This document shows positions 1 to 3,733 of a DNA stretch of 64,000 nucleotides, one piece after another (position 1 is the first letter of the stretch; each line of letters starts with the position of its first letter). The stretch covers positions 1 through 64,000 of the forward strand of contig DYIF01000007.1 of the NCBI GenBank assembly GCA_020723765.1. Direction: 5' to 3'. This stretch comes from Elusimicrobium minutum (GTDB lineage: Bacteria > Elusimicrobiota > Elusimicrobia > Elusimicrobiales > UBA9959). Below the pieces are notes generated by a model. It did no database searches and was not told the DNA's origin. It saw only the letters and a list, made by a program, of their open reading frames with translations. Both the position numbers and the translations under genes were made by a program.

Positions 1-60
1 GTTATTTTTGACAAGATGTATCATATTATAGTTAGATTATATTTGATTTGATTCGAAAAG

Positions 61-89
61 TTGATTATTTAGTCATTTTTTGCTATTCT
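61..89 (+). promoter_or_regulatory. Candidate promoter for the HD-GYP gene
   Basis: TTGATT (61-66) and TATTCT (84-89) are separated by 17 bases. The expected transcription start falls on or next to the ATG at 96, and no Shine-Dalgarno sequence precedes that ATG. If used, the mRNA would be leaderless. Inference from spacing only. Confidence 0.4.
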
Positions 90-95
90 AATTTT

Positions 96-1319
96 ATGGT
101 TTATGCGTTATTGTCGATAATAATCATATTGCTGGTGGTGCTTTTCATAGTCATTAACAGGCTTTATAACCTCAAACTTTCTTCTATAAAAAACAAAAAA
201 CATAGCGATCCGAACTTGAAAAGGATATGGAGCAAATTCGACGAACTGCTACTGGATATGATAGCCATTCATAATTACGGAATGAGCGGAATACCCAGCG
301 GCAAAGAGGGAGATTTTTACAAAATGGCCCTGGATAGAGCCTGCGACATAGTCGATTCCGAACGCGGTTCGGTTATGATTTACGACCAAAACGACGGTTT
401 TTTGCATATAGTAGCCGAGAGAGGGATAAGCAAGGACCTGGTCGAAAGCGTAAAATTAAAACCGGGGGAAGGGATAGCGGGACGGGCTTTTGAAAAAGGC
501 GAGATAATATTCGTTACAAATCCGCAGAGAAACCCGGATTACGACAAATTTTTAGGTTATGACGAACAAATGGAGCCTTTCGTATCGATACCTTTAAAAA
601 TACAGGGGAAATCTATCGGAGTTTTAAATATACATCTTCCCAAACATAAAACCAGTTTTACCGATTGGGAACTTAAATTTTTAACGATACTTGCCGACGA
701 AGTATCGGTTATGGTGGAGAATATAACCTTATATCAAAGCATAGAGAAATTCTATATAGAACTGGTTCAGACTCTTGCGAGAATAATAGACGCAAAAGAT
801 TCTTATACCGGAGATCATGCCACAAGGGCCAGAGAAAGAGCTTTAAAGTTGTCTAAAAAACTTAGCGTTCCCGAAAAAATGTTAAGAACGATAGAATACG
901 CCGCGCTTTTGCACGATATGGGCAAGATCGGTATAGACGAAAAAATAATAACAAAACCCGGCAAGCTTACCGATGAAGAATATAAACAGATGAAAAAACA
1001 TCCGGAAATCGCATACGACATATTGTCGCCGATAGAATTTTTGTCTCCCGTAGCGAAGATAGTTCTTTATCACCACGAGTGGTATAACGGAATGGGATAT
1101 CCCGACGGGCTTAAAGGAGAGGAAATTCCATTGGGCTCGAGAATCGTAAGCGTGATAGACGCATGGGACGCCATGACATCCGATAGACCTTATAGAAAAG
1201 CTTTGTCTAAAGAGGCCGCGATAGAAGAGTTGAAGAAAGGATCCGGAAGGCAGTTCGATCCCAAAGTGGTAGACGCTTTTTTAAGCTTGATAGAAGAAGA
1301 AGATTTTAGCAAGGAATAA
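96..1319 (+). CDS. Membrane-anchored GAF / HD-GYP domain protein
   Basis: Probable cyclic-di-GMP phosphodiesterase or signalling hydrolase. One membrane segment lies at about residues 3-22. A GAF domain follows at about 50-205 (GEGIAGRAF, then FVSIPLKIQGKSIGVLNIH). The HD-GYP domain covers about 220-400, with HDMGKIG near residue 273 and the HHE..NGMGYPDGL signature near 330. Metal-ligand residues look intact, so it should be active. I chose the ATG at 96 because an upstream TTG (48) would add a polar stretch before the membrane segment, and a promoter-like pair abuts the ATG. It lies one base before the rsmI-like gene. The ligand of the GAF domain cannot be told. Confidence 0.85.
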   Translation: MVYALLSIIIILLVVLFIVINRLYNLKLSSIKNKKHSDPNLKRIWSKFDELLLDMIAIHNYGMSGIPSGKEGDFYKMALDRACDIVDSERGSVMIYDQNDGFLHIVAERGISKDLVESVKLKPGEGIAGRAFEKGEIIFVTNPQRNPDYDKFLGYDEQMEPFVSIPLKIQGKSIGVLNIHLPKHKTSFTDWELKFLTILADEVSVMVENITLYQSIEKFYIELVQTLARIIDAKDSYTGDHATRARERALKLSKKLSVPEKMLRTIEYAALLHDMGKIGIDEKIITKPGKLTDEEYKQMKKHPEIAYDILSPIEFLSPVAKIVLYHHEWYNGMGYPDGLKGEEIPLGSRIVSVIDAWDAMTSDRPYRKALSKEAAIEELKKGSGRQFDPKVVDAFLSLIEEEDFSKE

Positions 1320-1320
1320 A

Positions 1321-2448
1321 GTGCTTTATTTGGTAGGAACACCCATCGGAAACATTAAAGACATAACTTTAAGAGCGATAGAAACTCTTAAAGACTGCGA
1401 TTTAATTTTTTGCGAAGACACCAGAAGAAGTTTGAATCTTTTAAACCATTATCAAATCAAAAAACCGTTGTATAGATATTCGGACCACATAAAGGAAACG
1501 GTTAATAATATAATTAAAAATATATCCGAAGGTAAAAAAGTGGCTTTGCTTACGGACGGCGGTATGCCCAATATTTCCGATCCGGGTTTCGCCGTAGTTA
1601 AAGCCGCAATAGAAAAAGGCATAAAAGTGGAAGTTGTCGGGGGGGTTAGCGCCGTTATAAACGCGATGGCTTTAAGCGGATTTGACGGAAGTTCTTTTGT
1701 CTTTTTGGGTTTTTTAGAGCGTAGCGATAGCAGAATAATAAAAACTCTGGAAACCCATTTCGCTTTCGGTTTGCCTATAGTATTGTACGAATCTCCCAAT
1801 CGCATCGTAAATCTTGTAGAGATACTGGCGAAGTATTTCCCTAACGCATATGTCGTCATAGCCAGAGAGATGACAAAGATTTACGAAGAGTGGATAAGAG
1901 GATATCCCTCGGAAATTTTGGATAAAATTAAGAAAAGAGAAATAAAAGGAGAGATAACGGTCGTTTTAAAAAACTTAAGAGACGAACGAACAGATTTAAG
2001 TTCTATCGGATTTGTTTGTACCGGAAATACTTGCAGAAGCGTTATGGCCCATTACTACGCTTTAAAAATAATATCCGAGAAAAAAATGGATTTAAACGTT
2101 TCTTCCGCCGGGATTTTGGTTGAGGAAAATGCGGTTTGCGATCACTCCTTGGAAATATTAAAGAAAAACGGGGTGGAGGATTTTAATCATATACCCGTTC
2201 AGGCCGATAGAAAATTTATGGAGAAAAACGACCTGATACTTACAATGACAAAAAAACAGAGAAATATTTTAAAAGGGTTTTTCCCGGAATACGCTTTAAA
2301 GATACGAACCCTTTTGGAGTATTCCGGTTTGGGAAGCGGAGATATATATGACCCTTTCGGCAAAAGCTATATGGAGTACGAACTTGCTTTTAAAAATATA
2401 AAAAAAGCGGTCGATAATATTATTGAGTCGATATCAAAAAAGAGTTAA
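1321..2448 (+). CDS. rsmI: RsmI 16S rRNA methyltransferase fused to low-molecular-weight protein phosphatase domain
   Basis: The N-terminal 225 residues are RsmI, which 2'-O-methylates C1402 of 16S rRNA: it starts LYLVGTPIGNIKDITLRAIE and contains FCEDTRRS and LLTDGGMPNISDPG. The remaining 150 residues (about 229-375) form a complete low-molecular-weight phosphotyrosine/phosphoarginine phosphatase domain: the P-loop FVCTGNTCRS (C-x4-C-R-S) near 230 and the general-acid motif YDPFG near 345. The reading frame is open throughout, so the fusion is real in this sequence. The start is GTG one base after the upstream stop. RsmI alone is about 280 residues in most bacteria; its own C-terminal tail is absent and replaced by the phosphatase. 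The substrate of the phosphatase part is unknown. Confidence 0.88.
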   Translation: MLYLVGTPIGNIKDITLRAIETLKDCDLIFCEDTRRSLNLLNHYQIKKPLYRYSDHIKETVNNIIKNISEGKKVALLTDGGMPNISDPGFAVVKAAIEKGIKVEVVGGVSAVINAMALSGFDGSSFVFLGFLERSDSRIIKTLETHFAFGLPIVLYESPNRIVNLVEILAKYFPNAYVVIAREMTKIYEEWIRGYPSEILDKIKKREIKGEITVVLKNLRDERTDLSSIGFVCTGNTCRSVMAHYYALKIISEKKMDLNVSSAGILVEENAVCDHSLEILKKNGVEDFNHIPVQADRKFMEKNDLILTMTKKQRNILKGFFPEYALKIRTLLEYSGLGSGDIYDPFGKSYMEYELAFKNIKKAVDNIIESISKKS

Positions 2449-2488: not shown

Positions 2489-3733
2489 ATGTACGAAGAG
2501 ATAAAAAAATTTGATCCGGAAATTTACAATGCGGTAAGAGGAGAGCTTTTAAGGCAACAAAATAAGCTCGAACTTATAGCTTCCGAAAATTACACTTCTA
2601 AGGCCGTTTTGGAAGCTTTGGGCAGCGTTTTGACAAACAAATACGCCGAGGGTTATCCTGGAAAAAGATATTACGGCGGTTGCGAATGGGTGGATATCGC
2701 CGAAAACCTTGCGATTAAAAGAGCGAAAGATCTTTTTAAAGCCGAGCATGCCAACGTTCAGCCTCATAGCGGAACTCAGGCCAATATTACGGCATATTTG
2801 TCTTTGATAGAGCCCGGGGATACGGTAATAGGATTAAATCTTTCTCACGGCGGACATCTTTCCCACGGCCATCCTTTAAATTTCTCCGGAAGGTATTTTA
2901 AAATAGTAAACATAAACGTAAATAAAGACACCGAGCTGATAGACTACGACGAGATGGAGAAAACCATAGAGAAGGAAAGACCCAAACTTATTATGGCGGG
3001 GGCTTCCAACTATTCGAGGGTCTGGGATTGGAAAAGGATAAAAAAGATGGCGGATAACTGGAAATGTTATATGGTTTGCGATATAGCTCATTACGCCGGA
3101 CTGATAGCCGCCGGAGTATATCCTTCGCCGGTCGAGTATGCGGATGTAGTAACCACCACCACTCATAAAACATTAAGAGGCCCTCGAGGCGGACTTATAC
3201 TTTCTAAAAAAGTTTATTCAAAGTCCATAGATAGAACCAATTTCCCCGGAAATCAAGGCGGTCCTTTGATGCATGTAATAGCGGCTAAGGCCGTTTGTTT
3301 CGGAGAAGCTTTAAAACCCGAGTTTGTAAATTATCAAAAACAGGTAGTTTCAAACGCTAAAAAATTAGCTTCTGAAATGGAAAAAAGAGGATACAGAGTG
3401 GTTTCCGGCGGAACGGATTCTCATTTGTTTTCTTTGGATTTGAGAGCCAAAAACATAACAGGCAAAGAGGCGGAGGCGGTTCTTGATAAAGCCGGCATAA
3501 CGGTTAATAAAAATACGATACCTTACGATCCTCAACCTCCGATGGTTACAAGCGGAATAAGAGTGGGAACTCCGGCAATAACCACAAGAGGCATGAAGGA
3601 AAAAGAAATGGAAGAGGTCGCCGAGTATATCGACGAGGCGATAAACCATAAAGATAACGATACGTATCTTAAATCGGTGGAGGAGAAAATAAAAAAACTT
3701 ACCGATAGATTTCCCATTTATGAAAATTTTTAG
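2489..3733 (+). CDS. glyA: Serine hydroxymethyltransferase
   Basis: PLP enzyme interconverting serine and glycine with transfer of a one-carbon unit to tetrahydrofolate; cytosolic. At 414 residues it has the family's usual length. Visible signatures are [30 protein letters not shown], the PLP-lysine segment [14 protein letters not shown] (about 225-238) and [11 protein letters not shown] near the C-terminus. A good ribosome binding site (GGGAGG) lies 6 bases before the ATG. It follows the rsmI fusion by 40 bases and precedes a sensor kinase by 14. Confidence 0.97.

Follow-up and report, generated by a model that had tools for sequence, protein, structure and literature searches.

An RsmI methyltransferase joined to a YwlE-type phosphatase in one family of Elusimicrobiota, a fusion probably due to operon collapse

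Why should an enzyme of rRNA modification and a protein phosphatase be made as a single polypeptide? The question is raised by a gene located in the first 64,000 bases of contig C32 (this stretch is called here the window) of a genome of 2.1 Mb, assembled in 32 contigs and 98% complete. It had been predicted that one continuous frame joins RsmI to a complete phosphatase with an intact P-loop, and this was confirmed: the two-domain protein is a genuine fusion (Table 1). An AAGGA motif is found 5 nt upstream of its GTG start codon, within the 3' end of the preceding HD-GYP gene. Neither ATG, GTG nor TTG is present in frame across the 26 codons preceding Cys233, so that a separate phosphatase cannot initiate there, and a free phosphatase produced from an internal start was ruled out for the window gene, whose linker has no start codon. 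In the fused genes of G009, G018, G024 and G159 an ATG or GTG is present near the P-loop and a free phosphatase form is conceivable.

Table 1. Features of the fusion locus in the window, genomes carrying the fusion, and TsaC-phosphatase frames of another family.
Feature	Location	Strand	Remarks
GAF-HD-GYP gene	48..1319	+	upstream, conserved neighbour; stops 1 nt ahead of the fusion GTG
RsmI-phosphatase fusion gene	1321..2448	+	375 aa; GTG start at 1321, TAA stop at 2448
RsmI domain	1321..1974	+	residues 1-218; TIGR00096, alignment with 5hw4 and 3kwp, fold match to 5hw4
Linker	1975..2001	+	about residues 219-227
YwlE-type low-molecular-weight phosphatase domain	2002..2445	+	residues 228-375; PF01451, YwlE PDB matches
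P-loop CTGNTCRS	2017..2040	+	Cys233 to Ser240, with Cys233 and Arg239
Asp344, presumed general acid in DPFG	2350..2352	+	near-invariant alignment column
glyA (serine hydroxymethyltransferase)	2489..3733	+	downstream, 40 nt from the fusion; ptp neighbour phylum-wide
Fused genomes of g1	G000, G001
Fused genome of g2	G002
Fused genome of g8	G008		cut by contig end
Fused genomes of g9	G009, G018, G024, G159
Fused genomes of g12	G012, G020, G128
Fused genomes of g13	G013, G021, G126
TsaC-phosphatase frame	L215 1797-2972	-
TsaC-phosphatase frame	L216 1670-2821	-
TsaC-phosphatase frame	L217 1221-2381	+

The N-terminal half (residues 1-224) matched TIGR00096, the curated equivalog profile of RsmI, scoring 206.5 bits where the cut-off is 167.9. 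Among PDB sequences it came nearest to 3kwp and to 5hw4, the E. coli RsmI (E of 1e-36 or lower); 9pzg, an entry of RsmI with the 30S subunit, matched as well. In the E. coli enzyme, Asp100, Ala124, Phe144 and Tyr169 contact AdoMet or were mutated, and Arg174 belongs with them to the residues for AdoMet and RNA (PMC5053481). Alignment placed these residues at Asp87, Ala111, Phe131, Tyr156 and Arg161 of the window protein. Asp87, Phe131, Tyr156 and Arg161 are invariant in all 14 fused rows, and Ala111 is replaced by Ser in three of them. When the AlphaFold2 model was compared using Foldseek, this half matched 5hw4 with a TMt of 0.91. Residues 1-218 are alike in sequence, key residues and fold to RsmI, the 16S rRNA cytidine-1402 2'-O-methyltransferase (5hw4, 9pzg), and the most likely activity predicted for this half is the 2'-O-methylation of C1402 of 16S rRNA. 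RsmI of several other phyla has a 50-residue C-terminal tail, whereas the window protein lacks it and carries the phosphatase instead; the tail is also absent from unfused RsmI of the Elusimicrobiota phylum and from Bacteroidota.

The C-terminal half matched PF01451 (LMWPc) over residues 229-366 with 85.8 bits against 23.2, covering model positions 1-142 of 144, and contains both the C(X)4CR(S/T) P-loop (CTGNTCRS) and the DP general acid (DPFG). Its best PDB sequence matches were the YwlE entries 1zgg, 4kk3 (E 2.7e-20) and 4eti, arsenate reductases and tyrosine phosphatases ranking below them, and its Foldseek matches were also YwlE structures (4etn, TMt 0.92; 4kk4; 4kk3; range 0.91-0.92). According to the available part of PMC8001253, an Asp is the general acid in such phosphatases, and Thr at position 5 of the P-loop favours phosphoarginine, as in YwlE and PtpB, while Ile favours phosphotyrosine. 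This position is Thr237 in the window protein, i.e., the phosphoarginine type, and Thr occupies it in all 45 separate domains and in all but one of the 16 fused rows (15, of which two duplicate other genomes); the exception, G013, has Ile. Since YwlE is the closest relative and the P-loop carries Thr, the target residue is more likely to be arginine than tyrosine, and dephosphorylation of protein arginine is the most likely predicted activity. With YwlE and S. aureus PtpB (4kk3, 4pic) this half shares the fold, the CTGNTCRS P-loop, the specificity Thr and the DP general acid, and also the gene neighbourhood, as glyA adjoins and, elsewhere in the phylum, tsaC adjoins too. Unlike them, the window phosphatase is not free-standing and the McsB-type kinase of its genome is degenerate.

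The AlphaFold2 model, obtained from a 28-row alignment, contains two complete domains (mean pLDDT 90.2, pTM 0.69, informing on each domain singly and leaving the mutual placing of the halves free) and dips below a pLDDT of 50 solely at residues 221-223, between them. A check for separate copies of either gene gave a single RsmI profile match in the whole genome, the fused copy being its sole rsmI, and two LMWPc matches. The second LMWPc protein (148 aa, C32:90712-91113, outside the window) has the P-loop CTGNSCRS and 26% identity with the fusion phosphatase over part of its length; judged by eye, it would be more like an arsenate-reductase-type member.

The domain pair was then sought in other genomes by comparing the whole protein with 340 genomes of the phylum, the counts being taken among about 160 matches listed. 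Within f1, the family of the window, 14 of 59 genomes carry the fusion, which is distributed in six genera and either full-length or cut by a contig end; L076 and L113, identical to G126 and G159, were not counted as extra fusions. Linkers vary in length and sequence between the fused genera. No fusion outside f1 was identified among those matches, a search by which a weak distant fusion may be missed, and a genome_contigs scan for both domains at one locus gave, judged by record titles, only Elusimicrobiota among the best 80 loci, with L080 titled just 'bacterium'. In a phosphatase-only search, the long frames examined in other families were either fusions with TsaC, one fusion of PPDK type, or frames open by chance. 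Among titles and the starts of abstracts, no publication reported a fusion of the phosphatase with RsmI or with Sua5, most subscription journals lying outside this search. Within these searches the RsmI-phosphatase pairing is previously undescribed and, as far as seen, confined to one family.

The possible origin of the fusion was studied through the gene order of its relatives. A string formed by HD-GYP, rsmI, tsaC, ptp (the phosphatase gene) and glyA was seen in G170 (L221), G172 (L224) and G201 (L228), and G323 (L222) has the same string from HD-GYP to glyA with extra genes inserted, which we take to be argC/argJ-like. In G171 (L227), tsaC, ptp and glyA were seen in the fetched part. In two of these five loci Pfam confirmed the TsaC domain. 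The original prediction had named Sua5/YrdC-type (TsaC) neighbours of such phosphatases, and tsaC is in fact located between rsmI and ptp in these other genomes of the phylum. Inside f1, G005 retains the old string with tsaC between rsmI and ptp, G016 and G010 retain tsaC after rsmI, and coordinates placed rsmI and then tsaC in the 12 genomes searched of a second family (12/12). Wherever rsmI and ptp adjoin or are fused, tsaC is missing from the string. A TsaC-domain frame of 316-361 aa, whose length suggests the long form Sua5, is present on another contig in 13 of 19 f1 genomes searched; that of the window genome is at C10:21677-22207.

This neighbourhood extends to a further fusion, as the TsaC (YrdC) domain is joined to the same phosphatase in G218, G219 and G220, which belong to another family (Table 1). 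These frames lie in the same HD-GYP to glyA string and contain the same phosphatase as the window fusion, but the partner is an enzyme of t6A synthesis and not RsmI, and the pair arose in another family. The phosphatase frame at L218 gave no TsaC match; a long phosphatase frame in another family is thus no sure sign of a TsaC fusion.

Among the 31 unfused adjacent rsmI-ptp pairs of f1 (excluding L080, a copy of G143, and G005, with its intervening tsaC), 21 overlap by exactly 4 nt, an arrangement that is one frame change from fusion. The route that we propose would begin with the departure of tsaC from the string, apparently following its takeover by a longer TsaC/Sua5-type gene elsewhere. Afterwards, rsmI and ptp would have come to overlap as neighbours, to be joined, probably three times, by a minor change of frame. 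In the fused genomes G009 and G018 of g9 the joint reads MTVMFVCTGNTCRS or a near form, and the start of the unfused phosphatase of G014 is MTIMFVCTGNTCRS. As judged from these letters, MTVMFVC in the former would be what is left of a start like MTIMFVC in the latter, and this start-like joint supports a recent separate fusion in g9.

Phylogenetic trees were constructed from the phosphatase and from RsmI (60 rows each) and from the two combined (51 rows). All of them gave three fused groups, namely g12, g1+g2+g8+g13, and g9, the last placed beside the unfused g3. The RsmI and joint trees need three changes, none of 200 bootstrap trees gives one, and the starred branches force two; a single clade of fused genes was rejected (AU p 0.00226). 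The fusion apparently had about three separate origins, an argument limited by the few fusion events and by long branches. Since these branches and an odd letter make-up were flagged, two origins, or one with losses, may also apply, and the fission of one old fusion keeps some probability as an alternative history. Six pairs within g12 and g9 gave dN/dS values of 0.05-0.08 (RsmI) and 0.09-0.21 (phosphatase), deeper pairs being saturated, or nearly so, in at least one domain; dS is saturated for G000-G001 and G013-G021, which leaves the window's own genus without a ratio. Both halves are under purifying selection. An inactive RsmI and an inactive phosphatase were each ruled out by the kept residues together with dN/dS.

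We consider, with a probability of about two in three, that the two-domain protein was made by operon collapse with the predicted activities of both halves kept, and that the fusion would mainly lock their production together. It counts against this reading that a single frame contains both RsmI and the phosphatase in 25 of the 75 loci examined (repeat genomes included), but both HD-GYP and RsmI in none of 89, and both the phosphatase and GlyA in none of 76. Joining is therefore not equally common among neighbours, and as the other neighbours of the string were never fused in these loci, the phosphatase may just accommodate extra sequence at its N-terminus easily. Frames of 600-800 aa near some rsmI or ptp genes (e.g., 732 aa in G020) were rejected as frames that lack stops by chance in GC-rich genomes; the HD-GYP gene is read in a different frame, so they are not HD-GYP fusions.

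A different question is on what the phosphatase acts. That it has outlived its kinase and is directed at phosphotyrosine or another non-phosphoarginine substrate is possible, though we hold it improbable. In favour of it, the window genome contains on C20 (L165 1135-3238, minus strand) an operon with genes for an ABC ATPase, a McsA-like protein, so called from its paired CxxC motifs and position, and a McsB-like protein without the NEEDH and Cys/Arg (GTG-R) motifs, and no other cognate kinase was found in this genome. The second Glu of NEEDH is catalytic in guanidino kinases, and B. subtilis McsB carries a PF00217 domain. The available passages of PMC8370763 do not state that role of the Glu. 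An alignment of 17 kinases revealed an intact NEEDH in G004, G005, G011, G012, G015, G020, G022 and four rows from other families. The same position reads NLYEH in the window genome, NISEH in G001, NFSSH in G013, NFRDH in G021, NFAEH in G126 and NGEDH in G002. The kinases of G001 and of the three g13 genomes thus show the same motif decay, GTG-R included, and that of G002 is partly eroded. Judged by its motifs, the McsB-type kinase of the window genome looks catalytically dead. In the four fused g9 genomes no kinase was detected either with Pfam or with a profile built here; PF00217 gave no match in 14 of 14 control genomes, and the custom profile gave the same absences. The P-loop is intact in all fused genomes with a decayed or undetected kinase. 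The Ile of G013 and a tyrosine-kinase-like gene (TIGR01007), above cut-off in eight of ten genomes including that of the window, are also in line with a substrate other than phosphoarginine.

However, the nearly constant P-loop Thr and the fact that the closest solved relatives are all YwlE argue for phosphoarginine. Moreover, G012 and G020, two fused genomes of g12, have an intact kinase. Kinase and phosphatase also co-occur in f1, a strong phosphatase match being present in 38 of 41 genomes with the kinase vs. 11 of 18 without it (Fisher p 0.006, kinship ignored; G137 was counted as present though cut, and G127 as absent). The kinase of G005 is a clear McsB (6fh1, E 6e-72). ClpC-like proteins with two Clp_N repeats were found in the ten genomes searched (10/10). 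At L017 (G019), L013 (G007) and L022 (G017), all from f1, the space from rsmI to glyA lacks ptp, and no McsB-type kinase was found in these genomes. This lineage offers natural cases of an intact YwlE-type phosphatase after decay or loss of the McsB-type kinase, which makes it testable whether YwlE-type phosphatases have targets beyond McsB.

A competitor of operon collapse is a ribosome-targeted phosphatase: through its RsmI half the protein would reach the 30S subunit and there dephosphorylate ribosomal or nascent proteins, the fusion having been selected for this link. Solved structures have RsmI bound to 30S (title of 9pzg), the phosphatase sits where RsmI of several other phyla has its tail, and the fusion has been kept in six genera after being gained apparently about three times. 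In addition, the linker ends only about six residues before Cys233, which obliges the RsmI half to lie close to the active site. TsaC provides another RNA-modification partner fused to the phosphatase; that both fusions attach such an enzyme counts against operon collapse, as a functional link would also predict it. Nevertheless, the linker changes from genus to genus, 31 f1 genomes have the two genes separate and adjacent, and the phosphatase is joined to whatever gene precedes it. As the substrate of TsaC is a tRNA precursor and not the ribosome, what the two partners have in common is their place in the operon more clearly than their target. Repeated fusion is no proof of a special ribosome-phosphatase link. 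The original prediction had suggested that the fusion may link ribosome modification with protein dephosphorylation; this is not favoured here, since fusion looks like a by-product, produced repeatedly, of adjoining genes that overlap. We prefer operon collapse and regard a selected ribosome link as unlikely. A narrower version, in which the tethered phosphatase would act on ribosomal or nascent proteins, taking phosphate from arginine or from some other residue, independently of McsB, whose kinase activity this lineage would have lost, appears less likely still.

If operon collapse is accepted, the locus bears on a common practice, as domain fusions are often taken as evidence of a functional link and the fusion steps found here warn against such a reading. 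Separated genes, a 4-nt overlap and repeated fusion are all visible in living relatives, and the joining of the same phosphatase to a different upstream gene adds to the warning. The evolutionary route to the fusion is clear, and its novelty is modest.

Finally, that the gene is decayed, or an artefact of assembly or sequencing, is scarcely credible: such errors occur in drafts, as in G015 (L176), where rsmI is split in two frames next to an intact ptp, but the frameshift or assembly error considered in the original prediction is ruled out by 14 fused genomes with differing linkers, among them three of g12 and four of g9, with both active sites kept and low dN/dS. The split rsmI of G015 is itself either a sequencing error in the draft or a broken gene. 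Another long frame with a C-terminal LMWPc domain was identified by Pfam at L223 4768-10107, minus strand (G195:C49), where 1780 aa include PEP-utilizer and PPDK_N domains; similar frames, judged by their length of 1771-1796 aa, are present in G196, G207, G209 and G232.
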